Source of the DNA: Pedobacter aquae | Lineage (GTDB): Bacteria; Bacteroidota; Bacteroidia; Sphingobacteriales; Sphingobacteriaceae | NCBI RefSeq assembly: GCF_008195825.1 | Contig: NZ_CP043329.1 | Location: 310,001 to 374,000, forward strand | Direction of reading: 5' to 3' | Length of the DNA stretch: 64,000 nucleotides | Shown: one piece after another, positions 1,497 through 47,400 of the stretch | How the letters are laid out: every line of letters starts with the position of its first letter | How positions within the stretch are numbered: position 1 is the stretch's first letter | Translations under genes and position numbers: made by a program | The notes under the pieces: model-generated | The model's database searches: none | Told to the model about the DNA's origin: nothing | Seen by the model: the letters and a program-made list of their open reading frames with translations, nothing else

Positions 1497-1858
1497 AATC
1501 TTGTTTTTAATGAAGCATTTCTAACAGATTTATCCATGCTTATTATAAATTGGTCTTCTAAATTATTTCCTATAGCATAATTTCTTTTTGCTACTCTAAT
1601 AATAGCTCTCACGACTTGAGGAAGCCAATCTGTGGTATTATTTTCTAATAACTCGTCTGCTAGAACTAATATTTGGTAAGGTTTAATATTAAATATTTGA
1701 GAAATCTTTATTAATTTTTCGGTATTAATATCGGTTCTTCCTTTTTCAATATTTGCATAAGAGTTAACGGTTAAACCAAGTTTATAAGCCATGAATTCTT
1801 GTTTCAAAGCACTTTCTTTTCTGAAAATACTTGTGATAATTCCAATTTCTTTTTTCAT
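1493..1858 (-). CDS. XRE-family helix-turn-helix regulator
   Basis: 121-residue protein with an N-terminal HTH_3 domain (about residues 15-70): QEFMAYKLGLTVNSYANIEKGRTDINTEKLIKIS is the usual helix-turn-helix pattern, split here across recognition helix and the IEKG turn. The C-terminal half is basic and has no recognised domain. It is convergent with apt (4-base overlap) and divergent from the lipoprotein gene at 1959, so it may control that gene or itself through the roughly 100-base region between them. Target unknown. Confidence 0.8.
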   Translation of the reverse strand: MKKEIGIITSIFRKESALKQEFMAYKLGLTVNSYANIEKGRTDINTEKLIKISQIFNIKPYQILVLADELLENNTTDWLPQVVRAIIRVAKRNYAIGNNLEDQFIISMDKSVRNASLKTRF

Positions 1859-1935
1859 AATAGATAAGATGTGCCAAATATAATAACCTAAATTAAATTT
1901 AGGGTGAAAAAAATGTGAAAGATTGAAGTGTTAAG

Positions 1936-1943
1936 TAGTTTTG
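1936..1943 (+). promoter_or_regulatory. Bacteroidota -7 element upstream of the lipoprotein gene
   Basis: The octamer TAGTTTTG matches the TAnnTTTG -7 consensus of Bacteroidota sigma-70 promoters and sits 15 bases before the ATG at 1959. No clear -33 TTTG is visible at the right distance, so this is only a partial match. Confidence 0.4.
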
Positions 1944-1958
1944 TAAAAAAAAATAATT

Positions 1959-3371
1959 ATGAAAAAACATCAACTTAAAATCACCTTCTTAATTATCTTT
2001 TTTATTTCTATTATAGGTTGTAAAAGAGATAATATTACTACTCCTGAAAACAAATTAGAATCCACAGGACGACTCAAATTCAGTACCAATGATGAGTTTA
2101 GAAGTTTTATGGAAATTTTAAATCAAAAAAGTGAAACTCAATTAGATGAAACTGTAAGTAAATATGCAAATAGAGAAAACTTCAATTCATTTTATAAATT
2201 ACAAAAAGTTATTAGTCAGAGGAAAACTTCTATCCTAAATCTAGAAGAAGTTAATGATACCTCAGAGCCGTTTGAAGATTTAGTACCAGATCCATATTTT
2301 GCTAGTGTGCTAGATAGTAATTTGGAGTTAAGTGTTGAGGGTATAATTTATAAAGTTACCTCTTTCGGCACTTTTATAGTTCAGACAGAAAAATATGATA
2401 GACTATTACTTTTACTTTCAAATTATAAATATTCAAAGAATATAAATTTTAAAAGTCATATCTTTTTTAGTCAAGAGATAGATAAGGATTTTTATAAAAT
2501 CGAAGATGGAATTATCTTATTAGATACATACAGAAGAGTAGAATCAAAAGAGAATGATGTAATTAGTTCGCTGATTTACAATGTTAAAAGGGATAATATA
2601 ACTACTAGTGATACAGGCACAGATGATTGGATTTATCAAAATTTACCGACGATTCACTTCGGAGCAAAAACATTAGCAGGAAAATTATTTGAAGAATTAC
2701 GTGGTAGAGAGGAAATTTACACAGAAAACTTCGAATTAAAGAGAAGAGTCAGAGTGAATTTTTATTGTGCTTCATGGGGCGTTTATTCTGCTGTAGGAGC
2801 TTCTGTAAAAATGCAGAAGAAAAATTGGATTGGATGGTCTGAAACTGCTGCAAATGAATTAAGGTTAGGTTGGGTTAGAGTATTATTTAGGTCAATTACC
2901 TAATAATAATGGGGCTTTACCACATCCCACATATCAAAGATTTACTCCTGTGGATCTTCCAAAATTGACTAAACAATATGTGGAAGTGGATTTATTAGGG
3001 TATCCTTTTACTTTTGATAGGAATAAACAACTACAGGTGGGAATAAAAGAACTTTTTGATTTTGCTAGCGTAAAAATTCCTTCTTTATACCCAAAGAAAG
3101 AAAATGTAAACTATGCTTTTAAAGTGTGGTCTGATTTTACCAAAAAAGTATATCTTTCGTTCAAGAAAGAGATGAAATTATAGCTTATAATGCAGAAAGT
3201 TTATCAAAAGTATTTGATTGGGCCGTTGGAGCGAAAATTACTTCCGATTTCACAAGTATTAATGTAGGTTATGCGCCACTCGACTTTACACTAGAGAATG
3301 CTTCTGTGTTTGGAGTTGCAAAATACGGTAACTCTTGGAGAGGGGCTAGAATAGTTGCACAATTAAAATAA
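1959..3371 (+). CDS. Large secreted lipoprotein of unknown function, frameshifted twice
   Basis: Begins with a lipoprotein signal peptide (hydrophobic stretch ending in IIGC at about residue 21), so it should be anchored in a membrane. No domain is recognised. The first part runs 1959-2903. The same protein continues in another frame from about 2884 (YLGQLPNNNGALPHPTY) to the A run at 3142-3147, then in the first frame again to a TAA at 3369-3371 (FVQERDEIIAYNAESL and so on). The second break is repaired by one extra A in that run. The first, near 2880, needs one base fewer or two more. Restored length is about 470 residues. It is followed after 4 bases by the barrel-like gene at 3376. Confidence 0.65.
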
Positions 3372-3375
3372 TTAT

Positions 3376-3906
3376 ATGAGACAAATCCTTTTAACTTTTA
3401 TGGCCATTATTATATCAAGTAGTATTAGCGCCCAAGACCTTTCTAGAAAAGGCTTTTTTAACAAAACAAAATTAGGCGTAGCCATACGAACCAATACAAC
3501 TCCACCTTATTCTGGTATTTTTGGAGATGAAGGTAATGGTACAGAAATTACAACTATAAATGGTTGGCATTTAAACCAGCATATTTCTTTGGGTTTAGGT
3601 ATAAGTGCATCTACTTATATCAATCCAACTTTATCATCATATCCTATATTTGTAAATACACATTACTATTTTAAAGAAAGCTTTAAAACGCCTTATACTT
3701 TTGCAAATTTAGGCTATGGCATTACATCTAACAGATATAATGGAGGCTTACTATACGAGATAGGTGCAGGCTACAATCTTAAATTAGGGAAGAAAACAGC
3801 CCTAACACCAGAAATATCTTATAAATATCAAGATTTTAGATATAAAACATCTGATGGTAAAATAGCTTTAAGCTCCATAGCATTAGGTATAGGTATGCTG
3901 TTTTAA
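3376..3906 (+). CDS. Predicted outer-membrane beta-barrel protein
   Basis: 176 residues with a cleavable signal peptide ending in SISAQ (about residue 20). The rest alternates polar and aromatic residues in short strands with repeated GLG/GYG/GAG turns and ends in a C-terminal aromatic (GIGMLF), the pattern of a small outer-membrane barrel. It starts 4 bases after the preceding lipoprotein gene, so the two are probably one operon. Specific function not recognised. Confidence 0.65.
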   Translation: MRQILLTFMAIIISSSISAQDLSRKGFFNKTKLGVAIRTNTTPPYSGIFGDEGNGTEITTINGWHLNQHISLGLGISASTYINPTLSSYPIFVNTHYYFKESFKTPYTFANLGYGITSNRYNGGLLYEIGAGYNLKLGKKTALTPEISYKYQDFRYKTSDGKIALSSIALGIGMLF

Positions 3907-25122: not shown

Positions 25123-25941
25123 CTAAATTGCTACGCTATGTTCTCTTAATGCATCGTTTAATGATGTTTTTTTATCGGTAGATTCTTTTCTTTTACCAAT
25201 AATTAAAGCACATGGCACTTGGTACTCGCCAGCAGGGAATTTCTTGGTATAGCTACCTGGTATAACAACAGAACGCTCTGGAACATACATTTTATGTTCT
25301 ACAGGCTCATCGCCAGAAACATCAATAATTTTAGTTGAAGCTGTTAATACAACATTAGCACCCAAAACGGCTTCTTTACCTACTCTTACGCCTTCTACAA
25401 CAATAGCTCTAGAACCTATAAAGCAGTTGTCCTCAATAATTACAGGAGAAGCTTGAACTGGTTCTAACACACCGCCCAAACCAACACCACCACTTAAGTG
25501 TACATTTTTACCTACTTGTGCGCAAGAACCTACTGTTGCCCAAGTATCAACCATTGTACCTTCATCAACAAAAGCACCAATATTAACATAAGAAGGCATC
25601 ATGATAACGCCTTTTGCTAAATGCGCACCATAACGAGCAATACCATGAGGTACTACACGCACACCTCTTTCTTTATAGTCGGTTTTTAATTTCATTTTAT
25701 CATGAAAAACAAAAGGACCAACTTCAATTTCTTCCATTTCTCTGATAGGGAAATAAAGAATTACTGCTTTCTTTATCCAGTCGTTAACAGCCCAACCATC
25801 TAAAATAGGTTCTGCAACTCTTAGTTCTCCTAAATCTAAATGATGAATAACTTTTTCTATTGCATTACGGTACTCTTTGAAATTTAATAAATTTCTATCT
25901 TCCCATGCATCTTCAACGGCTTTTTTTAGTTCGGCAATCAT
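25123..25941 (-). CDS. dapD: 2,3,4,5-tetrahydropyridine-2,6-dicarboxylate N-succinyltransferase
   Basis: 272-residue enzyme of the succinylase branch of lysine and diaminopimelate synthesis. The left-handed beta-helix hexapeptide repeats run from about residue 100 to 210 (VIMMPSYVNIGAFVDEGTMVDTWATVGSCAQVG, read in segments). The N-terminal helical region AVEDAWEDRNLL and the VVPGSYT-like tail are present. It is the last normal core gene before the island; its start is 74 bases from the left-hand S4 copy, which points away from it. Confidence 0.96.
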   Translation of the reverse strand: MIAELKKAVEDAWEDRNLLNFKEYRNAIEKVIHHLDLGELRVAEPILDGWAVNDWIKKAVILYFPIREMEEIEVGPFVFHDKMKLKTDYKERGVRVVPHGIARYGAHLAKGVIMMPSYVNIGAFVDEGTMVDTWATVGSCAQVGKNVHLSGGVGLGGVLEPVQASPVIIEDNCFIGSRAIVVEGVRVGKEAVLGANVVLTASTKIIDVSGDEPVEHKMYVPERSVVIPGSYTKKFPAGEYQVPCALIIGKRKESTDKKTSLNDALREHSVAI

Positions 25942-25959: not shown

Positions 25960-26117
25960 AAATTAAAGGTTTTTTTAGCTAATAATCTGAATTTTGACTT
26001 ATTTTGAGAAGATTTATGGTAGAAAAAGTAAGGATAGATAAATACCTGTGGGCAATAAGGTTGTTTAAAACAAGAACCTTGGCTACAGAAGCTTGTAAGG
26101 CTGGAAGGGTGAAGAAA
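25960..26117 (+). repeat. Left copy of 158-bp direct repeat (5' end of S4 gene)
   Basis: Aligns without gaps to 32569-32726 with 5 mismatches in 158 bases, four of them in the 56 bases before the ATG and one silent change (TTG/TTA Leu) in the coding part. Identity begins at AAATTAAAGG and stops abruptly after GGTGAAGAAA. The two copies bound the island. Confidence 0.95.
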
Positions 26118-26120
26118 TAG
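26016..26120 (+). pseudogene. Truncated 5' stub of S4-domain protein
   Basis: The ATG at 26016 opens 34 codons identical in protein to the start of the intact S4 gene at 32625 ([20 protein letters not shown]...), then hits a TAG exactly where the duplication ends. The S4 RNA-binding fold is cut in its middle, so the product would not be functional. Confidence 0.9.
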
Positions 26121-26271
26121 TTAAATTCAATAGTTAGTTGTTATTGAGATTTCCTAAATCAGCTTGTATTTTTTATTTAAAATCTTCCAATTTCTGATTC
26201 TTAATTTAATCAAACATCTAACGCAAATAGACTGCGTTAACCACATTTACCTTTACTTCATATTTAAGAAT

Positions 26272-28107
26272 ATGTCAGAACTTTTATCTAAATCAGACTA
26301 TAAAATAGGGGCTTCTTGTGCCAAGAAACTCATCTACAAGAAATCAAAATACCCAAGTACGTTAGCTAATAATGAATATATGCTAATGTTAGCAGAAGGA
26401 GGGTACTTGATTGGTAAGTATGCAATATTGCATTTTCCTGAAGGTATAGAAGTAGAGGATGATATTGAATTAGGAGAAATACAAACTACAAACTATTTAA
26501 GGGAACAGGAAAATGTCACGCTTTTTGAAGCTACAGTAGTTAACAATCAAAAAATTATCCGGATTGATATTTTACAAAAGGAAGGTGGAGTACTGAATTT
26601 AATAGAAGTAAAATCAAAGTCTTTTGATAGTGAATCTGGAAATATAAAAAAAGAGTTGAGTTCCGAACTAGAAGATATTGCTTACCAAAAATTAGTTTTA
26701 CAAGATGCTTATCCTAATTTTAAAATTAATTGCTTCCTATTCATCCCGGATAAAAGTAAGTCATTAAAAATAGATAACTTAATTTCTTGGTTTAGTGTTG
26801 ATGAAACTAAAATATCAGAAAATCAAAATTTCAAAAAGCCTGATATAGCTTTTCTTTACAGTCTACATTCTCCTGAGCATCAGTTTTTAATTGAAAAATC
26901 TTTTTTAAGCCTTATTAATGTAAACGACGAGATTGACGATATTTTACCAACAGTAAAACATAAGTCTAACAAATTATTAAATGTTTTAAATTATGGAATT
27001 AATCCAGATGACTTTGAGTTAACGATTAAGTGTTTTTCTTGCGAATATCAAGCTGAAAATAAAAGTGGCTTTAAAGAATGTTGGGGTAAGTTAGCTGATA
27101 TTAAACCGTCTATTTCTTCTTTATATCATTTAGGAACTTTAGGAGGGAAGAAAAACCCAATTGCTGATATAATGATAAAAAATGGGGAGATAAGCTTTTT
27201 TGACTTGAAACCCGAGTATTTCTATAAAGCCAATAAGGTTGATATAGGTAGCAGAGGAGTAAGACAACTAATACAATATGAAAACACTTTAAAAAATACA
27301 GAGTGGTTTTCTAATAGGATGAAGGACGAATTAAAAAGTTGGATATATCCTTTACATTTTATTGATTTTGAAACTTATACTGGTGCAATGCCTCATCATA
27401 AGGGGATGAGACCTTACGAAACCGTAGCATTTCAATGGAGCTGTCACACAATACTAAAGCCTAATACAAAACCAATTCATTCTGAATGGATTAATACAGA
27501 AAAGACTTTCCCAAACTTCAGATTTGCCGAAAGTTTAATGAAACAGATAGGTCATGATGGGACTCCGTTAATGTGGGCCACCCATGAAAATACGGTATTA
27601 AGGGCTATTTTATTTCAAATGGAAGGTTTTAATTATGAAAATGAAGAATTAAGAAATTGGCTTCTTGGAATTACTAAAGATAAACAAGGTGGTAAAGAAG
27701 GTAGGTTAGTAGATATGAATGCCTTTACTTTTAATCATTATTTTCATCCACAGATGGAGGGAAAAACATCTATTAAAAAAGTATTGCCTGCCATTTGGAA
27801 TAATAATGAGTATCTCCATCAGATAGAATGGTTAAAAGAATATGTTGGTTTTGATTTGGCAGGTGTAATAAAATCTCCTTATGATAAACTAAGTGGTTTG
27901 ATGGCTGATTTAGAAGAAATAGAAGCTGTAAAAGATGGAACAGCAGCGATGAAAGCGTATTACGATATGCAGTATGGTTCTACTAGTAAGGATAATATCA
28001 AAAAAGAAACACTTAAAAAACTACTTCTACAATACTGTAAACTAGATACTATGGCTATGGTAATTATTTGGAAATATTGGATGGACAAAGTAAATGACAA
28101 AGGCTAA
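26272..28107 (+). CDS. DUF2779 protein: Cas4/RecB-like nuclease fused to RNase H-like exonuclease
   Basis: About 611 residues from the ATG at 26272 (MSELLSKSDYKIGASC). An upstream in-frame ATG at 26164 would add 36 hydrophobic residues and seems not to be used. N-terminal half: LSKSDYKIGASCAKKL, the start typical of DUF2779 and Cas4-like proteins. The PD-(D/E)XK core is Asp99 (RIDIL) with Glu112-Val-Lys114 (LIEVKSK). Cys16 plus Cys254, Cys257 and Cys270 have the spacing of the Fe-S cluster in Cas4/AddB-type nucleases. C-terminal half: HFIDFET (Asp365, Glu367) and YCKLDTMAMV (Asp592) look like a DEDD/RNase H-fold exonuclease. Substrate unknown; the context suggests DNA processing or defence. 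Overlaps the next gene by 14 bases. Confidence 0.75.
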   Translation: MSELLSKSDYKIGASCAKKLIYKKSKYPSTLANNEYMLMLAEGGYLIGKYAILHFPEGIEVEDDIELGEIQTTNYLREQENVTLFEATVVNNQKIIRIDILQKEGGVLNLIEVKSKSFDSESGNIKKELSSELEDIAYQKLVLQDAYPNFKINCFLFIPDKSKSLKIDNLISWFSVDETKISENQNFKKPDIAFLYSLHSPEHQFLIEKSFLSLINVNDEIDDILPTVKHKSNKLLNVLNYGINPDDFELTIKCFSCEYQAENKSGFKECWGKLADIKPSISSLYHLGTLGGKKNPIADIMIKNGEISFFDLKPEYFYKANKVDIGSRGVRQLIQYENTLKNTEWFSNRMKDELKSWIYPLHFIDFETYTGAMPHHKGMRPYETVAFQWSCHTILKPNTKPIHSEWINTEKTFPNFRFAESLMKQIGHDGTPLMWATHENTVLRAILFQMEGFNYENEELRNWLLGITKDKQGGKEGRLVDMNAFTFNHYFHPQMEGKTSIKKVLPAIWNNNEYLHQIEWLKEYVGFDLAGVIKSPYDKLSGLMADLEEIEAVKDGTAAMKAYYDMQYGSTSKDNIKKETLKKLLLQYCKLDTMAMVIIWKYWMDKVNDKG

Positions 28108-28384
28108 GCGATTAAAAAAGATGAAAGTCATCCAAAAAGAAGTGAAAAAATTTGAAGATAGGCTTTTTCATCATTCGGTGGATTTAATGCTTGATGAAAC
28201 GCCAACATTAAAAAAGTTTTTGGATAGAAATAAGGATTTGTCTTTTTCTCTTATTGAAGATGATTTTAATACTTGTCATCAGGTGTTTACAAAAGCGATT
28301 TACCAACTTTTTATGTTCACAGAAGAAATAAATCAACTTCTTATAGAACTAATAGAAAAAGAAGATGATGATTTACCTTTTTAA
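28094..28384 (+). CDS. Small helical protein of unknown function
   Basis: 96 residues, not recognised. Very basic N-terminus (MTKAKRLKKMKVIQKEVKK), then predicted helices with many Leu/Ile/Phe and an acidic end (EKEDDDLPF). Its start overlaps the DUF2779 gene by 14 bases, which suggests coupled translation and possibly a partner of that nuclease. Confidence 0.65.
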   Translation: MTKAKRLKKMKVIQKEVKKFEDRLFHHSVDLMLDETPTLKKFLDRNKDLSFSLIEDDFNTCHQVFTKAIYQLFMFTEEINQLLIELIEKEDDDLPF

Positions 28385-28413
28385 GAATGAGATAATAATT
28401 TTAAATTATAATT

Positions 28414-29049
28414 ATGGAAGCAAAAAAACTTGTAGATATTGTTTTTGATGGAATTAAAAGTGCTAATACAAAAAACGAGTTAGAAAAACTATTTAGTATC
28501 GATAAACTTGAGTCTAATAGGATGAAAAAGGAAAAGTATCCACCTATTAAATTTGAGATTAACTATTCTGAAATAAAGAAATTCTTAGATAATGAAAATA
28601 ACTTATTAAAAGACTCATCTTTAATTACCGATCCTCTTGCAAAAATACTTTATGCCTTAGTCTGGAAAAATGGTGATTTACAAAAGATAAAACATATTGT
28701 AGAAGGTATTAGAGATATTGATTCATACGATGAAGATATGAAGAATGATGGATTGGTGTTTTATCAATTTGGGAAATATCTAACCAAGAAAAATAATGAG
28801 CCTATTATTGATCAGCATGTCATTAGAGCATTTGCAGTTAGAAATGCCGAAACATACAAAGTAGATATTGATACACTTAGAAGAATGTCACTTCTTAATT
28901 CAGAAACTCATAGAGGTTATATCAATGATTATAAAACTTGGTTGATTTCTGATGAACTCCAATCGTCTTTAAAAAAAGAAACAGATTATATTTATTATAT
29001 CGACCAAATACTATTTGCGCTAGGTAAAACTATCAAGCTAAAAAAATAA
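28414..29049 (+). CDS. Unknown protein with DQHVIRAF motif
   Basis: 211 residues, soluble, no signal peptide. It begins MEAKKLVDIVFDGIKSAN and has a central YQFGKYLTKKNNEPIIDQHVIRAF split region and a basic end. The phrase IIDQHVIRAFAVRN weakly recalls the aspartate-containing helix of HhH-GPD-like proteins, but the rest does not let me assign it. It is the third gene of the island's plus-strand run, 29 bases after the previous stop. Confidence 0.6.
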   Translation: MEAKKLVDIVFDGIKSANTKNELEKLFSIDKLESNRMKKEKYPPIKFEINYSEIKKFLDNENNLLKDSSLITDPLAKILYALVWKNGDLQKIKHIVEGIRDIDSYDEDMKNDGLVFYQFGKYLTKKNNEPIIDQHVIRAFAVRNAETYKVDIDTLRRMSLLNSETHRGYINDYKTWLISDELQSSLKKETDYIYYIDQILFALGKTIKLKK

Positions 29050-29108
29050 ATAAGAACCACACCTTATTTAATCAAACAAATTACTAATTAAAAAACTGTT
29101 AATGAAGT

Positions 29109-29327
29109 ATGCAAGGAAAATTATTTAGTGTGCGCTTAAATAATTATGACCTCTTTTTTGTAATAGCAAATAGCCATTCAGATGCTATTAAAAAGGTAGA
29201 AAGGAGAGTAAATGTTGATCAAATTTTCAAAAATATCATTCATAAAGATGGCTCTTTAGAATTACCTGATGATAAAGACTTAGAGATTTTGGAAGTAACT
29301 AAGCTTAGCGATGAGTTAATCTTTTAA
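29109..29327 (+). CDS. Small protein of unknown function
   Basis: 72 residues: FSVRLNNYDLFFVIANSHSDAIKKVE is a beta-beta-alpha start similar in style to small phage or mobile-element accessory proteins, followed by an acidic C-terminus. Not recognised. It lies 4 bases before the next start. Confidence 0.5.
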   Translation: MQGKLFSVRLNNYDLFFVIANSHSDAIKKVERRVNVDQIFKNIIHKDGSLELPDDKDLEILEVTKLSDELIF

Positions 29328-29330
29328 ATC

Positions 29331-29633
29331 ATGCAATTCAAATATTATAAAGACCAAATCATAGAAGTAGCTTCTTTACTAGAATGTTTTAATGAAGAGT
29401 TGATGGAAAAGCTAATTAATATTGCTTTAGATGGCGAAATGAAAGAGCTAGACGATGTTTACAAGTCGGGTAAATTCAATTTTCAAGTTGAAGAGTTTTA
29501 TCAGTTTGATGATCCTGTACTTAATCAACTTTGCGAATTAAGTGAGCACATAGAAAAGGTTAAAACTTTTTGGAAGATAGCTATCCAAATCAAGAAAATT
29601 TTTATGATATATCAGATGATGTTTAATATTTAA
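29331..29633 (+). CDS. Small acidic protein, paralogue of the 29975 gene; probable 3' frameshift
   Basis: 100 residues as read. Residues about 20-80 align by eye with the protein at 29975 (LINIALDGEMKELDDVY against MLNLATEGELKEISDSF; FDDPVLNQL against IQDPNVNLL). After the T5 run at 29567-29571 the frame as sequenced gives a hydrophobic tail (WKIAIQIKKIFMIYQMM). One extra T instead gives FLEDSYPNQENFYDISDDV with a stop at 29624-29626, which fits the soluble character and the paralogue's length. Function unknown. Confidence 0.55.
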   Translation: MQFKYYKDQIIEVASLLECFNEELMEKLINIALDGEMKELDDVYKSGKFNFQVEEFYQFDDPVLNQLCELSEHIEKVKTFWKIAIQIKKIFMIYQMMFNI

Positions 29634-29645
29634 ATATAATCAATA

Positions 29646-29975
29646 ATGGAAATAACAACTCAACACACCTATTGGACAGGTTATTGTCCAGAATGCGGTT
29701 TAAACGGAGAACAAGTTAAAATGCGTTTAAATCATTATGATTTCTATGAATGTGAGAAATCTAAATTGCAAATAGCAGTTTTTTCTGGTGCACAAGCTAT
29801 TATCATGAAAACCAGAGGATTGGGGAAGTTCAGAAATACAATTAGTTATGGGCATGAAATAGCTAATGAAGAGGTGTTGAGCCCCCAAACAGTAGATAGA
29901 CCACCTTTTAATCATGAAGGAGAAGTTTTTAACGAGCTTGAAGATTTAATTAATTATCTAAATATTTTAAAGTAA
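29646..29975 (+). CDS. Small CxxC zinc-ribbon-like protein
   Basis: 109 residues. The N-terminus contains GYCPECGLNGEQ and, 20 residues on, FYECEKSKLQ: a CxxC knuckle plus a further Cys, so a partial zinc ribbon is possible. No further domain recognised. Its stop overlaps the next ATG (TAATG), so it is co-translated with the 29975 gene, one of the paralogous pair flanking it. Confidence 0.6.
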   Translation: MEITTQHTYWTGYCPECGLNGEQVKMRLNHYDFYECEKSKLQIAVFSGAQAIIMKTRGLGKFRNTISYGHEIANEEVLSPQTVDRPPFNHEGEVFNELEDLINYLNILK

Positions 29976-30247
29976 TGAGCGCTTATAAATTTCAAGTACT
30001 CGAGACCATTGAGGCTTTAGACGAAATAGAAGGTATTCTTTATACTAGAATGCTAAATTTAGCAACAGAAGGAGAGCTAAAAGAAATAAGTGATAGTTTT
30101 GAGATTGGCGATGTTGTGCCATTTAAGTATGAAGATTTAAAGAATATTCAAGACCCAAATGTTAACCTCCTGATGAATATTTTTAATGATGTGGTAAATG
30201 CAAAAGAAAAGTTTAAGAATTTGTTTCCTGATATAAAGGCTATTTAA
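29975..30247 (+). CDS. Small acidic protein, paralogue of the 29331 gene
   Basis: 90 residues, acidic and helical (LETIEALDEIEGILYTRMLNL). It shares the LNLATEGELKEISD and DPNVNLLMN features with the protein encoded at 29331, so the two arose by duplication or form alternative partners. Function unknown. Confidence 0.55.
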   Translation: MSAYKFQVLETIEALDEIEGILYTRMLNLATEGELKEISDSFEIGDVVPFKYEDLKNIQDPNVNLLMNIFNDVVNAKEKFKNLFPDIKAI

Positions 30248-30260
30248 AATATTTTAGAAA

Positions 30261-31450
30261 ATGAAATTGATAACAAATGTTCAAGAATTAGAAAAAATTC
30301 TTAAAGAATTAAAAGCCAATCCAATATTTTATGCTTTTGGTGAGAATAAGGAAAATTTTCATAGTAGTTTTTGGAAATGGATGTTTAATGAAAATGCTAA
30401 AGAAACGATTCTAATTCTTACAGGGATAAATGAGAATGAGGATTTGAATTTGAATAATTCTTTTTTAGAAAGAGAACAAAATGCTTCAAATAGCGATAAG
30501 GAACATAAATATAAGGCTAGGTATGATGTTTTAATAACTATAAATGGTATACGAAAATATATTATCGAAACAAAAGTTAAATCATTTCCTACTTTGGAGC
30601 AACTAAGAAGAATAGAATATGCAACAAAAGATAAACATAAAATTAAGTTCTTTTGTATCCATTTATATCCATCTAATACTTTAGAAAATTTAAAAAGTAC
30701 TCTTAATAATTGGTTTTTTTACGACTTTGAAAGTCTATCCAAAAGAATTAACATTGAAAAGTTCAGTCAAATTAAAAGAGTATATATAGAGGATTACAAA
30801 AAAATGCTTATTGGTTTAAGTGATTTATTTAGATTATTTTCTTTTAATCAGACACGTCCTAATTACGATTTTGTCTGGAAAAACGCTAAAAATCAAGAAG
30901 ATAATTTTGATTTGCAAGCAAAGCTAGAGGAATATAAATTATGGGAATTATTTCTTCACTATAGATCAAAACATTTTTTTATAGCCTTCAAAAAGCAATA
31001 AACGAAAGTGAAGAGATTAGTGATAAAATGAAGAAGTTGTTGGTTTATGAGTCAAGTATCAATAATAAAAAAAGTACTATTTCTATAGGTTATATTTTGC
31101 AGGGTGATAGTGATTTAGTTAATTACAGTCTCAATGAAATAGATCGTAGAATAAATAAATCAAATCAATCAGATACAAAGATTGTTGGAATTCAAATTGA
31201 AGATGAACAATTTAGGCAATTTGTTTTGTCAAAGAAAGATAGTGAAAAGCTTTTTCAGAATATGGAAAAACAAGGTTTCTTTGAGAATTGCCATGACTTA
31301 CAAAAAGATAAACTTTTTTGTAAATATGGAGATACTTTTAAATATAGGTATACTAAGCTTCAGATTAGTGATTTTGACGGTATCCTATACCAAGTAGTAC
31401 AGTATTTTAATAAAGTAGAAAGACTTGAGTCAAATCTTTTACAGATATAA
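30261..31450 (+). CDS. PD-(D/E)XK nuclease family protein (PDDEXK_4-like), frameshifted
   Basis: Predicted nuclease of about 396 residues. Its N-terminus has the ENKENFHSSFWKWMFNENA opening typical of the PDDEXK_4 group, followed by the catalytic core Asp89 (RYDVLITING) and Glu103-Thr-Lys105 (YIIETKVKS). The reading frame breaks in the T7 run at 30974-30980; one extra T gives HFFYSLQKAINESEEISDKMKKLL and joins the second piece (to 31450). The C-terminal half is not recognised. It is convergent with the WYL regulator, 5 bases apart. Confidence 0.75.
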
Positions 31451-31455
31451 TAATC

Positions 31456-32463
31456 TTAGAAATTCTCCAAAGCGTCGATCAACCTTTTTTTAATAGCTTT
31501 TTTAAGGCTTTCAGGGTGTTGAATCACAAGAAAATTGGCATAACCACATATAAGGGTTTCTAATTCTACATTATGTACTACTTGTAATTTGATGTGTAAA
31601 CCTCTTTCATCCTCCTTAATAATTACTTGAGAATGGTGTAAAGGTTGTGTTTTGATATAATTAGAGAAAATGGGTTTTACAATAATTTTTACTTCTTGTA
31701 TGGTATCTGTAGGATTAGAAACACCAATAACATTGCTGAAAAAGCTTTGCGCATTTATATTATTGGCTTGATATATTTCAGTTTTTAAAATTTCTATTTC
31801 CTTTATACGATCTAGGGCATAAGTTTTTAAAAAATCAAAATTTGGATTAAAACCTAAAACATACCAACGATTCTTAAACTCTTTCAATAAATAAGGGTGT
31901 AAAGTATTCTTTTTAATAACTTCACTATCAAATTTTTGATAAGTTATTTTTAGTACTTGTTGGTTCTGAATAGCATCTAGAATATTGTTTATATAATTGG
32001 TTCCTGTAGGTAGGTAAGTGTCCTCAAAATGTATAAACTTATTTAAGTTTTTATATAATTGTATAGTAACTCTATGTTCTAAACTCTCAAAGGCATTTTT
32101 TAAATTATCAAAAAAATGAAAGCCTTTATATTGCTTTAAAGTTTCAATGGCTAGGGCTATATTTCTGATATCATTTTGAGTCAGTGATGCATTTTTGATA
32201 GAATAATTTCTGTCAGAGTAGCTATATAGACCCTTTTTACATACTATTGGGGCATTGTATCCTAAAATATTACTACGTAAAACTTTTATATCATTCTCTA
32301 TGGTTCTTTTGCTAACTGTATTTTTATCTGATCTATATCTTACTTCATCTAAAGCATCAAAGCATGCTTTTGCTAAGTCTTCCCATGTCCACTCTCGATA
32401 AAAATTTTGCAAACATTTATCTATCGTATGATATCTAATTAAAGCATCCAGATTAACAGGCAT
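31456..32463 (-). CDS. WYL-domain transcriptional regulator
   Basis: 335 residues. N-terminal winged-HTH-like region (about 1-75) with SKRTIENDIKVLRSNILGYN, then a WYL core: LKITYQKFDSEVIKKNTLHPYLLKEFKNRWYVLGF, given in overlapping pieces, with the RWYVLGF strand that names this type, and a C-terminal WCX-like domain. WYL proteins bind ligands and control many defence operons (for example BrxR/CapW in BREX and CBASS loci). It is the only minus-strand gene of the island and probably controls it, but no operator was identified. Confidence 0.85.
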   Translation of the reverse strand: MPVNLDALIRYHTIDKCLQNFYREWTWEDLAKACFDALDEVRYRSDKNTVSKRTIENDIKVLRSNILGYNAPIVCKKGLYSYSDRNYSIKNASLTQNDIRNIALAIETLKQYKGFHFFDNLKNAFESLEHRVTIQLYKNLNKFIHFEDTYLPTGTNYINNILDAIQNQQVLKITYQKFDSEVIKKNTLHPYLLKEFKNRWYVLGFNPNFDFLKTYALDRIKEIEILKTEIYQANNINAQSFFSNVIGVSNPTDTIQEVKIIVKPIFSNYIKTQPLHHSQVIIKEDERGLHIKLQVVHNVELETLICGYANFLVIQHPESLKKAIKKRLIDALENF

Positions 32464-32568
32464 AGATTTTCAATATTGTTAGAGTATTTTATAGGCAATA
32501 TAAGTGATTATAGCTAAATTATCTATTTATGAATGAAACTATAACTTTATCGATATCATAAGAATATT

Positions 32569-32726
32569 AAATTAAAGGTTTTTTTAGCTAATAATCTGAT
32601 TTTTGAGTTATTTTGAAAACATTTATGGTAGAAAAAGTAAGGATAGATAAATACCTGTGGGCAATAAGGTTGTTTAAAACAAGAACCTTAGCTACAGAAG
32701 CTTGTAAGGCTGGAAGGGTGAAGAAA
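32569..32726 (+). repeat. Right copy of 158-bp direct repeat
   Basis: Second copy of the block at 25960-26117, 5 mismatches in 158. It contains the upstream region and first 34 codons of the intact S4-domain gene. Confidence 0.95.
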
Positions 32727-33026
32727 GATGGTACCAATATTAAGGCAAGCTATGAAGTTAAGGTGGGTGATGTTTTACAGGTTTCAAAGAATATTGAGAA
32801 GAAGCTAATAAAAGTTACAGCTTTATTGGCTAACCGTGTAGATGCTAAAAAGGCAGTCTTACATTATATGGATATTACCCCTGTAGAAGACACAATTAAA
32901 TTTAAATCTATGTTTAGGATGCCAGTTCTGGAGCGAGATAGAGGAACAGGCAGACCAACCAAAAAAGATAGAAGAGAAATAGACGATTTACAGGATAACT
33001 TCTTCATGGATGAAGATGATGATTAA
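32625..33026 (+). CDS. S4-domain RNA-binding protein (Hsp15-like)
   Basis: 133-residue protein with an N-terminal S4 domain ([23 protein letters not shown], then GRVKKDGTNIKASYEVKVGD). The RIDKWLW-type opening is characteristic of the Hsp15/HslR family that binds free 50S subunits. The C-terminus is basic, then acidic (DEDDD). The ATG at 32625 is chosen because it is the start shared with the truncated copy; a TTG 12 bases upstream is also in frame. Its promoter and 5' end were duplicated when the island arrived. Confidence 0.85.
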   Translation: MVEKVRIDKYLWAIRLFKTRTLATEACKAGRVKKDGTNIKASYEVKVGDVLQVSKNIEKKLIKVTALLANRVDAKKAVLHYMDITPVEDTIKFKSMFRMPVLERDRGTGRPTKKDRREIDDLQDNFFMDEDDD

Positions 33027-33034
33027 AAAAAATT

Positions 33035-34009
33035 TCAAGATTTTCTAACAAAACGTTCTATAATTTCTAATCCTAATAAGGCTTCTTCTAGCGAACATGG
33101 ATTTTCTTCCTCACCTCTAAAATAAGCAATGGTTTTAGTAATCATTGGTCGTTGTATATTAATGGGGTGTTCAAATTCTTCATGAATAGTTTCTCCATTT
33201 TTGGTGATGCTTAGTTTATTACCGAAAATATGGAAAGTTATTTTCCCTCTTGTACCGATAATTTCGCAAAACTCCTTTTCTTGTTCTGGCAATACATCAA
33301 AACACCACAATCCATTAAAAATAACGTTGTTCTCAAATTTAATTTGGCCACATACGATATCATCAGCATCACTTTTTAAAGATTGATTAGTAGATACACC
33401 ATTAAAATAAGTAGGTTTTCCAAAGAAATAAAGCATTAAATCTATAGCATGTGGTGCTAAATCATGAAATAAACCACCACCAGAGATACTTGGGTTTAAG
33501 CGCCAGTTTTCTTCGCTTGCCGCAATCATATCAGAACCACTTCTTTGTAAAGTTTGCAGGTTAACAAATTTTACATCGCCAATAGCCTGCTCATCTAGAA
33601 GTTTTTTTATAGCCTTAAAATAAGGTACTTCTCTTCTGTAGTGCGCTACAACTACTTTTTGTTTGTACTGCTTTTGCGCCTCAATAATAGCTGTACAAGC
33701 TTCCGTATTGATGGTTACAGGTTTCTCAATATAAACTGGTTTGCCGGCTTTTAAGGCTTCAATGGCATAATCATGATGTTGAAGAGGCGGCGTAGCAACA
33801 TAAATGGCATTTATATCATCATCCAAAATTAAGGCAGAAGCATCTTGATACCACTTTTGTATTTGATGTCTTTTGGCATAATCAGCAGCTTTTTCTGCAT
33901 TTCTTCTCATGACCGCTACAACTGTAGAGTGTTCTTGTTTAAAAGCAGGACCACTTTTAACCTCTGTAACATTACCACAACCAATAATTCCCCAATTGAT
34001 ACTTTCCAT
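33035..34009 (-). CDS. Gfo/Idh/MocA family oxidoreductase
   Basis: About 324 residues. N-terminal Rossmann fold with WGIIGCGNVTEVKSGPAF, the conserved EKPVT motif (KAGKPVYIEKPVTIN) and the C-terminal alpha/beta domain with SGGGLFHDLAPHAIDL. NAD(P)-dependent sugar or cyclitol oxidoreductase; substrate not deducible. The ATG at 34009 fits the fold; a start at 34051 would overlap the upstream deaminase gene. It lies one base after that gene's stop, so the two are translationally coupled. Confidence 0.88.
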   Translation of the reverse strand: MESINWGIIGCGNVTEVKSGPAFKQEHSTVVAVMRRNAEKAADYAKRHQIQKWYQDASALILDDDINAIYVATPPLQHHDYAIEALKAGKPVYIEKPVTINTEACTAIIEAQKQYKQKVVVAHYRREVPYFKAIKKLLDEQAIGDVKFVNLQTLQRSGSDMIAASEENWRLNPSISGGGLFHDLAPHAIDLMLYFFGKPTYFNGVSTNQSLKSDADDIVCGQIKFENNVIFNGLWCFDVLPEQEKEFCEIIGTRGKITFHIFGNKLSITKNGETIHEEFEHPINIQRPMITKTIAYFRGEEENPCSLEEALLGLEIIERFVRKS

Positions 34010-43241: not shown

Positions 43242-44413
43242 ATGGCCGATTCATCAAAAGAATTTATATTAAGAGCATTAGATAGCGAGTTAAATCGATT
43301 ATCAAAATTATATAGTATCATAGTGGTTACAGGTCCTCGTCAGTCTGGAAAGACTTCCTTGTGTAAGCATCAGTTTCCAAAATATCATTACATCAATCTG
43401 GAAAATCCTACCACCAGAGAGCAAGTGATGGTAGCACCAAAAGCTTTTTTAGAGGAGCATCTTGGCGGATTAATTATAGATGAAGCTCAACATATCCCAG
43501 AGTTATTTTCTTATTTGCAGGTTATTGTGGATGAAAATGAAAAGGCTAAATATGTGTTAACTGGTAGTAGTAATTTTGCTTTATTACAAGGCGTTACTCA
43601 ATCATTAGCAGGTAGAGCGGCCATACTTACATTGTTGCCATTATCGCTAAATGAAATTGGCCAACATAGAAATACCAATACCAACACTTTACTCTTTAAT
43701 GGAGGGTATCCAGCTGTTTGGGCTAAAGGAATTCCGGCAAACGATGTAACACAAAACTATTACAATACTTATATAGAAAGAGATGTAAGACAATTATTGA
43801 ATATTAAAGATATTAATCGTTTTCAAGTTTTTATGAAGTTATGTGCAGGCAGGATAGGCTCGGAGTTTAATGCTTCTTCATTATCTAATGAGATAGGTGT
43901 GTCTGTACCTACAATACAAGAGTGGCTAAATACTTTAGAGGCCTCTTACGTGTTATTTAGGTTGCCGCCTTTCTTTAGAAACATTGGTAAAAGATTAGTT
44001 AAATCTCCTAAAGTATATTTTATGATACAGCATTAGCTTGCTTTTTGTTAGGTATAGAAAACGAGCAACATTTGGATGTTCATCCTTTACGTGGTGCTAT
44101 TTTTGAAAATTTAGTGGTATTAGAGTTTATAAAAAATAGATTTAATAAAGGTAAATTACCTAACCTATATTTTTATAGAGATAAATCCCAACATGAAATT
44201 GACTTAATAGAAGAAAAAGGTTTGCAACTTCATGCTTATGAGATTAAATCGGCTAAAGCTTTTACAAGAGATTTTTTAAATAATCTTAATTATCTAAGAA
44301 AAATTGTTGGACAAGATATGGCGTCTACACGAGTGATTTATGATGGTCCTGATGATTATGAAACATCAGAGAACGGGATTATAAATTTTAGAAATATAAA
44401 GTTTGACAGTTAG
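43242..44413 (+). CDS. AAA-type ATPase with DUF4143 domain, frameshifted
   Basis: About 390 residues when joined. P-loop VVTGPRQSGKTSL (about residues 28-40) and Walker B GGLIIDEAQHIPE, then SSNFALLQGVTQSLAGRAAILTLLPLS, which is typical of the AAA_14 plus DUF4143 family, with C-terminal DUF4143 containing LRGAIFENLVVLEF and YFYRDKSQHEIDLI (nuclease-like). The break is at the T4 run 44028-44031; one extra T gives VYFYDTALACFLLGIE. Such ATPases occur as solitary, patchily distributed genes; function not established. It stands alone between tamL and dnaE. Confidence 0.85.
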
Positions 44414-44461
44414 TTATTAAAAATGAAGGGTCCTAAATGATCAAACCCTTCCATCTCTCTC

Positions 44462-47400
44462 TTAATTCAAAACATAATCTACTTCCAACTCATCAAGCTG
44501 GCTTAAAAGCTCTTTACAAATGTTTATTTGTTTGGTCTTGCTCTGCATATCAACTTTCAAACGGTCTTTTTTATCCAAAATAACAAAGCTCAATTTTTTA
44601 GAACCACTATGGTTTGATATCACTTGATTTAAATTGTGAATAAAATCATCACTTATCTCACTAATATCTACACTGATATCTATTTTGGTTGATTGCTTTT
44701 CCAGAACATCTCTTAAATCGGTAAAATCTGTATAAGATATTTTTGCTCTTTTAGATCCATCTGGGTTAGAAAAATAGCCAACATTACCTTTAATATAGAG
44801 GTAGTTGTTTACGATTAAATGGTGTTTAAATTTTAGATATTCATCTCTGTAAATGGTAAATTCATAAGCATCATCATATCCTTCCAATTTAAAAATTCCC
44901 CAGCCTCTGCCGTCTTTGGTGGTCATGTGTCTGATAGAGGTTACGATACCACCAACTTTAAATTGGAAATCGGCACCTTTTTCAATTTCGTTAAAAACGG
45001 TAAGGTTGCCGCTAGAACAATATTTGTTTAAAACCAATTTATATTCATCTAAAGGATGTCCAGAGATGTAAATACCTACCACTTCCTTTTCTTTGGCCAG
45101 TTTTTCCATGGCGCCCCATTCTTCGCAAGGAGATAAGCTAGGTTCTGCTATTTCTACATTGCTAGAGCCTCCAAATAAACTTCCTTGAGAAGAATTTTCA
45201 TTCTCTTTATGCTTAGCACCATATTTAATAGCCTTTTCAAGTGGCGATGATCCATCACCATCATCATAAAAATATTGAGCTCTATGAGTATTTTCAAAAC
45301 AATCAAATCCGCCTGCTAAAACCAAATTTTCAAGCGCTTTCTTGTTAGCAGCTCTTAAATCAATACGTTTGGCAAAATCAAAAATTGATTTGTATTTGCC
45401 TGTTTTACGGTTTTCTACAATGGTTTCTACTGCACCAGCTCCAACACCTTTAATGGCACCCATACCAAAACGGATGGCGTATTGGTCGTTTACGGTAAAT
45501 TTGTAATAAGATTCATTAACATCAGGACCTAAAACTACCAAGCCCATACGTTTACATTCTTCCATAAAGAAAGTAACTTGCTTAATATCATTCATGTTGT
45601 TTGATAGTACAGCAGCCATATACTCGGCAGGGTAGTGGGCTTTTAAATATGCAGTTTGGTAAGCAATCCAAGCGTAGCAAGTAGAATGAGATTTGTTAAA
45701 AGCATAACTTGCAAAAGCTTCCCAATCTTTCCATATTTTTTCTAATGTTTTAGGATCATGACCTTTTTCTGCTGCTTGCTGCACAAATTTAGGTTTCATT
45801 TTATCCAAAACATCTTTTTGCTTTTTACCCATGGCCTTACGTAAAACGTCGGCTTCACCTTTGGTAAAATCTGCAAGTTTTTGCGAAAGAAGCATTACCT
45901 GCTCTTGGTATACGGTAATACCATAGGTTTCTTTTAGATACTCTTCGCAAGCATCTAAATCGTATTTTATTTCTTCCTCACCATTTTTTCTTCTGATAAA
46001 ACTTGGAATATACTCTAGTGGTCCCGGTCTGTAAAGCGCATTCATGGCTATTAAATCACCAAAAACTGTAGGCTTTAGCTCTTTCATGTACTTTTGCATT
46101 CCGCTTGACTCGTACTGGAATATACCTACCGTTTCACCACGTTGGAAAAGTTCATAAGTTTTTAAATCATCAATAGGGAAAGTATCAGGGTCTAAATCTA
46201 TATCCAACCTATGTTTAACCAGCTTAACGGTATCTTTGATCAGCGTAAGCGTTTTAAGACCCAAGAAGTCCATTTTTAACAGACCAGCGCTTTCTACTAC
46301 CGAGTTGTCAAATTGGGTAACATATAAATCAGAGTCTTTGGCTGTAGCAACAGGAACAAAGTTGGTGATATCGCTAGGTGTAATAATAACCCCGCAAGCA
46401 TGTATACCGGTATTTCTTAAAGAACCTTCTAAAACTTGTGCCTGTTTTATGGTTTCTGCACCTAAATCATCTCCGTTTGCTAGGGCAATCAATTGCTGAA
46501 CGTTTTCCATCTCCTCAGAGCGTAGCGCACTCCTAAGCGCTTGCTCATCCATATTGAAAATCTTATTCAGCTTTAGATTAGGGATAAGTTTAGCAATTTT
46601 ATCAGCCTCAAAAAGCGGTAAATCTAGCACACGGGCAGTATCTCTGATAGACGATTTTGCCGCCATAGTACCATAAGTGATGATTTGAGCTACTTGGCTG
46701 GCACCATATTTTTTAATAACATAATCCATTACTCTACCACGACCTTCATCATCAAAGTCGATATCAATATCGGGCATGGAAACCCTATCTGGATTTAAGA
46801 AACGCTCAAAAAGTAAATCGTAAGCAATAGGGTCTATGTTGGTGATACCTAAACAATAGGCTACTGCCGAGCCCGCCGCAGAACCCCTTCCTGGGCCTAC
46901 AGAAACATCCATTTCTCTAGCTTTGGCGATAAAATCCTGAACAATTAAGAAATATCCCGGGTAACCGGTATTTTCAATGGTCTTAAGCTCAAAATCTAAA
47001 CGCTCTTTAATTTCTGGAGTAATTTCCTCGTAACGTTTAGCTGCCCCTACATAAGTTAAATGAGCAAGGTATTTATTCTCACCTCTTTTACCACCATCAG
47101 CTTCGTCTTCTGGTACTAAAAACTCTTCCGGAATATCAAATTTAGGAAGCAAAACATCGCGGTAAAGCGAGTAAGTTTCTACTTTATCAATCACTTCAGA
47201 GATATTGATGATAGCTTCCGGAACATCCGAAAATAGCTTTTTCATCTCATCGGCAGCTTTGAAATAATACTCGTCATTTGGTAGGGCATAACGGAAACCT
47301 CGTCCGCGTCCTTTTGGTGTAGAAAATTTCTCGCCATCCTTAACGCACAATAAAATATCATGCGGATGGGCATCTTCTTTATTGATGTAATAGGTGTTAT

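Follow-up and report, generated by a model that had tools for sequence, protein, structure and literature searches.

The subject of this analysis is a block of accessory genes situated between dapD and an S4-domain protein gene in the 64-kb window (the whole stretch of DNA analysed, 64,000 nucleotides) of the Pedobacter aquae genome, which is a single contig of 3.85 Mb and is labelled G000; other genomes and loci likewise carry G and L numbers. On the left of the block lies dapD, the gene for tetrahydrodipicolinate N-succinyltransferase (25123..25941, reverse strand; THDPS_N_2, E 2.7e-23), which is the conserved left neighbour of the site, and on the right lies the intact S4-domain protein gene (32625..33026, forward strand, 133 amino acids (aa); PF01479, E 1.1e-10). 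A pair of ungapped 158-bp direct repeats, both on the forward strand, was found by a repeat search at 25960–26117 and 32569–32726: they are 97% identical, with 5 mismatches, and their spacing from start to start is 6,609 bp. The sequence that they enclose (26118..32568; 6,451 bp) holds the accessory genes, and is referred to as the island and its genes as the cargo hereafter.

Each copy joins the intergenic region between dapD and S4 to the opening 34 codons of the S4-domain gene. In the left copy, these codons run from the ATG at 26016 to the AAA ending at 26117, and the TAG at 26118–26120 follows directly at the repeat edge, so that only a stub is left; the right copy runs on into the intact gene. 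Four of the mismatches are located in the non-coding part (25991/32600, 25998/32607, 26008/32617 and 26011/32620), and the fifth (26081/32690) is a silent change at a third codon position, TTG/TTA. An earlier note on this DNA had described the same two copies, the duplication of an upstream region together with a 5′ end, the stub closed by a stop codon, the intact right copy and the mainly non-coding mismatches, and all of this was reproduced. No other direct repeat of at least 50 nt was found in the window by the repeat search, which gapped repeats can escape, and blastn located the 158-bp segment at exactly two places in the genome.

The same note had seen no integrase or transposase inside the island. 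This agrees with the scans with Pfam, PADLOC, NCBIfam and PHROGs, in which neither a recombinase family nor a transposase family was recognised there. Nor was a transfer RNA (tRNA) or transfer-messenger RNA (tmRNA) that might have served as the target found by ARAGORN in the loci around the insertion site in G007 (L023) and G004 (L024).

Empty sites and a second carrier in the genus

The S4 region was matched in 16 of 18 genomes of the genus, the two without a match being G011 and G014. One of the matched genomes, Pedobacter puniceum HX-22-1 (G007; NZ_WKJI01000001), carries the same island in the same arrangement, and its 158-bp repeats differ from one another at one base (99%). An assembly artefact, which the earlier note had named as an outcome that would overturn its description, is ruled out by this second carrier and by the single contig of the window genome. 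In all 14 other genus loci, dapD and S4 stand head to head with a gap of 62–76 bp, and the island is absent from that gap; the empty site predicted for close relatives exists. The contrary outcome, the same block in most relatives, was not encountered, since among the genus loci the block was found only in G007. G003 and G004, which are 89% identical in the S4 region and have a 74-bp gap, align cleanly across both repeat edges.

Gap variation and recurrent duplications in the family

The S4 gene was found in 297 of 301 family genomes, and two matches were present in four of them: G000, G007, G236 (a stub) and G091. The second match in G091 was rejected as a stub, for it is a C-terminal match on another contig. 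For a comparison of gene order we used 115 loci, namely those of 15 genus genomes and of 100 family genomes outside the genus, the latter being the first 100 by S4 match score and hence those with the most similar S4. The two genes were divergent in 113 of the 115 loci, and in the other two dapD was not found within the fetched stretch. The gap between them in the 113 loci was at most 100 bp in 29, 101–250 bp in 40, 251–500 bp in 10, and more than 500 bp in 34 loci, 33 of which belong to the 98 loci outside the genus; it exceeded 2,000 bp in five of the 34.

The large gaps contain different genes. In 30 of the 34, open reading frames (ORFs) of at least 100 aa were found, which form 28 families and divide the loci into 13 groups without a common cargo family, while four gaps have no such ORF. 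The expectation that other cargo would occur at the same site elsewhere was thus borne out. One membrane-protein-like family is present at 11 loci, and ADP-ribosylglycohydrolases are present at 5; a 173-aa protein that looks secreted and a 70-aa protein were each found at 3, and glycosyltransferases, an acyltransferase and PAP2 also occur. A scan of ten cargo proteins of other loci revealed one transposase-associated remnant. As a control, the distance between other common gene pairs was examined in the same loci: a gap of at least 500 bp was found between dapD and S4 in 34 of 111 loci, and in 9 of 12 other pairs the corresponding values were 0–7%. The remaining three pairs gave 40%, 47% and 78%, and conserved genes sit between the members of the 78% pair. 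The dapD–S4 gap is a hotspot, but perhaps not the sole one nearby.

The duplication itself was also found to recur. The 115 loci (1,664,038 bases) were compared with themselves, with E up to 1e-6, a low-complexity filter, an identity of at least 85% and a spacing of more than 150. Six repeats were obtained, and the three of at least 50 bp all lie at the upstream region or 5′ end of S4: 158 bp in G007 (99%), 105 bp in G251 (98%) and 61 bp in G236 (97%). The other three, of 32–38 bp, are located elsewhere than the S4 5′ region. If the place of a repeat were random, the chance of three out of three at S4 would be about 1e-4, a rough figure for loci that were chosen around S4. Relative to S4, the repeats span −56 to +101 in G000 and G007, −121 to −17 in G251, and +6 to +66 in G236; therefore, the three cases share no common segment. 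Their ORFs do not fall into common clusters by blastp (E 1e-5) either, and in all three the intact copy is on the S4 side.

The repeat in G251 covers most of the divergent gap without any coding part and encloses a 214-aa ORF; in its relatives G110 and G278, the gap is 143 bp and 138 bp, respectively. The order in G236 is dapD-X-S4 stub-Y-S4, and that in its relatives G284 and G185 is dapD-Y-S4. It appears that two successive insertions occurred in this gap (L141) and left a stub of the S4 5′ end isolated between the two cargo genes. Among 48 gaps of at least 200 bp, no coding stub of dapD was found, and only the known intergenic repeats of L023 and L133 were detected. Three further repeats were not accepted as cases. 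In G218, a DUF2779 gene lies between two copies of a 92-bp repeat, one of which abuts a run of N and the other of which is beside insertion sequence (IS) genes, presumably IstB-like; a 46-bp repeat in G032 (82.6%) follows the transposase-associated remnant; and one in L177 is short (24 bp). A promoter scan was also made, with the consensus TAnnTTTG: exact matches were located upstream of S4 in both copies of G251, and only looser ones in the G000 island.

Routes of insertion

The repeats, the empty site, the variable gap, the recurrence of the duplication without a common core, the lack of any recognisable recombinase, and the likeness of the island ends and S4 body between G000 and G007 are the observations from which we proceed. 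From them we infer a donor, a circle and a single crossover, and we lean, by a modest degree, towards the dapD/S4 gap being an integrase-free gene-exchange hotspot in which the DNA of relatives is captured by homologous recombination. The cargo would arrive on DNA of relatives in which it adjoins S4, and homology in the S4 and dapD flanks would be used. When a fragment ends inside the S4 5′ region, the linear piece composed of the cargo and the S4 upstream region and 5′ end would probably circularise and then be inserted by a single RecA-type crossover within the short stretch of homology. A crossover of this kind necessarily places the cargo between two copies of that stretch; in the G000 island, the copy next to dapD is a dead stub, and the one next to S4 is intact. 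Both dapD and S4 would keep an upstream region, so that the event might be survivable in a tight gap. Surviving cells would need a functional upstream region for each of the two genes, and where the gap is 74 bp (G003/G004) or about 140 bp (G110, G278), its duplication would be one means of providing this. Once established, an island could spread between species via ordinary recombination in its flanks. Probably some fragments entered as circles by one crossover.

Such an outcome has been described in the laboratory (here and below, statements on papers cited by PMC number refer to the portions of those papers available to us). When linear DNA homologous at one end was introduced into Escherichia coli, 56 of 60 recombinants gave a polymerase chain reaction (PCR) product of a duplication, and the 14 sequenced duplications, of 109–950 bp, were attributed to DNA that had recircularised and integrated by a single crossover; the remaining 4 of the 60 clones looked like homology-facilitated illegitimate recombination (HFIR) (PMC3240628). 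The natural loci resemble this case in the variable length of the duplication around the insert, and differ from it in that a laboratory plasmid was used there, whereas the present duplications, of 61–158 bp, are deduced from natural chromosomes. In G236, the order of genes is what would be expected if a circle of Y and the S4 5′ end had entered a dapD-X-S4 strain. Genes of the DprA and ComEC families were found in all four genomes tested, which adds little support because most control genomes have them too (11 and 10 of 14, respectively).

The two copies in G000 differ in type, in agreement with the earlier suggestion that the stub may have come from a related strain. The left copy agrees with the empty-site genomes G003 and G004 at four of the five mismatches, where the right copy has another base. 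At the fifth, it is the right copy that has the G003/G004 base, and the left copy agrees with all 12 outgroups. The left copy of G007 is a mosaic of both types, and this pattern of bases suggests a later conversion there. Outgroups gave mixed signals on the polarity of the two copies.

A comparison of G000 with G007 further suggests that the island moved between species. The identity is 98.1–99.5% at the cargo ends, 100% in the right repeat and 97% in the S4 body, for which G004 gives 86%; in pcnB, a glycosyltransferase gene, tad and tamB, it is 87–93%. A recent exchange of the island ends together with S4 is likely, albeit not proven, on these identities.

Several observations weigh against capture by a circle and against the exchange. 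First, neither a circle nor a donor nor an intermediate was observed, and every genome found to carry the island also has the left stub; moreover, 61–158 bp is short for a RecA-type crossover. Second, there are three duplication cases only, one of which is common to two species. The dapD-X-S4 recipient for G236 is a hypothetical type: among 149 genomes, X was found outside G236 in one (G275), where it is 48% identical and S4 lies on another contig, and the order can be read conversely, with X and the stub put into dapD-Y-S4. Third, all four island copies of G000 and G007 agree against G003/G004 at four further positions, and the outgroups are mixed at most of the informative positions; self-duplication with later divergence, or conversion between the copies, could therefore also have given rise to the two types. 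Fourth, taken over the entire island, the signal of exchange is modest: the identity between G000 and G007 is 95.2% in dapD, 94.1% in the oxidoreductase gene at 33035–34006 and 92.1% in the middle of the cargo, and that of the whole cargo (95.6%) compares with 94.0% for window 1–25000 and 91.1% for 33500–64000, other stretches of the window reaching 96–99%. As for the hotspot, one gene family is found in 11 of the 34 large gaps, perhaps by vertical inheritance, and the control pairs at 40% and 47% may be equally variable.

An alternative with some, if small, probability is HFIR itself, in which one end of the donor recombines in S4 or dapD and the other joins illegitimately inside the resident S4 or the gap, leaving the stub. 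It is documented in competent bacteria (PMC3240628), and it would account for the variable repeat length, for copies of different type and for the survival of only those junctions that spare dapD; the order in G236 is also readable in these terms. However, its products generally carry deletions, and the PCR-detected duplications of the E. coli experiment were explained by circles that integrated through a single crossover (PMC3240628).

An integrative element was the frame of the earlier note. We regard as unlikely a site-specific element in which a tyrosine or serine recombinase targets the S4 5′ region, the 158-bp segment restores the gene, and the integrase has been lost or acts in trans. 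In its favour, the repeat edges are exact, the gene is restored intact with the intact copy on the S4 side in every case, and G000 has five matches to PF00589, four of them above the cut-off. Integration at a 5′ end is also known: streptococcal integrative and conjugative elements (ICEs) with tyrosine integrases occupy the 5′ ends of ftsK and rbgA and leave repeats of 12–54 bp (PMC4701971). Thus, the contrast that the note drew with elements duplicating a 3′ end is right as to the duplication of a 5′ end here, but it is not decisive. Like these ICEs, the dapD/S4 island is inserted where a housekeeping gene starts, is flanked by direct repeats and leaves the gene intact; unlike them, it has no recognised recombinase, longer and variable repeats and no fixed core (PMC4701971). 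The element is disfavoured because the repeat lengths vary (158, 105 and 61 bp), no common core exists, unlike at an attachment (att) site, and no recombinase is recognisable in the cargo; nor do the ORFs of the three cases form a shared gene set. Judged by score and length, counterparts of the nearest integrase-like gene (G000:C1:315590-316042; window ~5590) seem to exist in G003, G004 and G007, and for that reason it looks like a housekeeping gene.

Rather doubtful, in our estimation, is an undescribed host process that preferentially captures foreign DNA at the dapD/S4 divergent promoter and duplicates the upstream region, the S4 5′ end or both around the insert. If it were true, neither housekeeping gene would be harmed, the captured genes might use the S4 promoter, and the site would be a recombinase-free cassette site. 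An unrelated insertion by a transposon or by random end joining, with a target duplication made in one step (for example, from filled-in staggered breaks) without donor homology, is improbable: it yields duplications of variable length, and the remnant in the G032 gap is transposase-associated (DDE_Tnp_1_assoc, E 4.4e-8; a similar sequence occurs in G077), but the usual target duplications are far shorter than 61–158 bp, the island has no transposase family, and the restriction of repeats of at least 50 bp to S4 in 1.66 Mb is left unexplained.

The locus has its closest known counterpart in the minimal mobile element (MME), a concept reportedly introduced by Saunders and Snyder in 2002. In an MME, two conserved genes flank whole-gene cassettes that differ between strains and are taken in by homologous recombination (PMC3082526). 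The dapD/S4 pair likewise flanks different cassettes, compared here across the species of a family and in the MME within one species, and the cargo of the G000 island likewise has no recognised mobility genes. Three of the present cases also bear a duplicated part of the S4 5′ end or upstream region, a mark that does not figure in the available portion of that source (PMC3082526), and the recurring promoter/5′-end duplication is the new part. Horizontal gene transfer (HGT) hotspots without mobile elements have also been described, in which cargo turns over between fixed core genes, in many of them without an integrase; recombination is more frequent in the flanking core genes, and double homologous recombination was proposed (Oliveira et al. 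2017, PMC5635113). The turnover at dapD/S4 without a recognised integrase is similar, but the repeats are not (PMC5635113): a double crossover alone leaves no duplication, and the repeats suggest either one crossover or one homologous and one illegitimate end. In the literature consulted, no report of direct repeats with a truncated copy arising from a single crossover or transformation at islands was found, and we make no wider claim that none has been published.

Hotspots without an integrase are common, and insertion there has mostly been inferred from statistics. The scar at dapD/S4, with its variable duplication, its empty sites and its three cases, is a concrete footprint of integrase-free capture that can be searched for at other hotspots, and it suggests how a very tight divergent gap accepts foreign DNA with both genes unharmed.

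Genes carried by the island

The first cargo gene encodes a DUF2779 protein of 610 aa (26275..28107, forward strand; PF11074, E 1.3e-25) with a presumed DEDD-type 3′–5′ exonuclease domain, and we take its N-terminal IEVKSKS stretch to resemble a RecB-like PD-(D/E)XK motif. The family has been described as a presumed 3′–5′ exonuclease that occurs with a PD-(D/E)XK-like domain (PMC3985635). Six smaller ORFs follow on the same strand. No family was assigned to those of 96 aa (28094..28384; ORF list and Pfam scan), 211 aa (28414..29049; 83% aa identity to its G007 counterpart), 72 aa (29109..29327; ORF list) and 109 aa (29646..29975; ORF list). The G007 counterparts of the other two, of 100 aa (29331..29633) and 90 aa (29975..30247), resemble each other, which is perhaps the trace of an old duplication inside the island.

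Next on the forward strand is a nuclease-like gene (30261..31450), which is split by a frameshift into 30261–31001 and 31028–31450. Its match to HSDR_N is weak (E 4.2e-4, below the Pfam cut-off) and covers the N-terminal part only. In G007 it is one intact frame of 396 aa, whose product gave no hit in Pfam at E 0.01. The frameshift sits in a T-rich stretch and may stem from a recent loss, from variability of the tract or from an error in sequencing. The last cargo gene, on the reverse strand, encodes a transcriptional regulator with a WYL domain (31456..32463; 335 aa; PF13280, E 3.8e-14; PADLOC WYL, E 1.3e-23).

In the PADLOC search, which did not include the intact G007 nuclease-like protein, the components of the island did not match a described anti-phage system. 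For the WYL protein there were matches to a Cas3c profile (E 3.5e-12) and to two WYL profiles, and the sole match among the nine other island proteins was that of the 96-aa ORF to PDC-M09A (E 0.032). Blastn searches of plasmid records with the island and its flanks, and of phage records with the island, gave no match; records of this or a near genome may be missing from both collections. No viral contig was confirmed to encode a relative of the nuclease-like protein. Judged by title, no paper on DUF2779 in defence was found.

Relatives of the nuclease-like protein occur in 2 and those of DUF2779 in 13 of the 301 family genomes, G000 and G007 being included in the latter. Neither dapD nor S4 was found near DUF2779 in 13 stretches from the other 11 genomes, several of these stretches being short contigs, and a WYL gene is located beside DUF2779 in one of the 13 (G215). 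There (L058, 8513–11426), the WYL gene and DUF2779 are convergent and nearly touching. In Sediminibacterium magnilacihabitans (L104, 8069–11866), a WYL gene, a 257-aa ORF without a Pfam match and DUF2779 stand in a row. This order suggests a WYL/DUF2779 module with a variable partner, for which a role in defence might be considered on the gene content.

Two other stretches of the window gave no blastn match in the corresponding region fetched from G007. One of them, 43501–44500, does have a match in G004; the other, 1501–3500, had none in the region fetched from G004 either and is probably another variable region.

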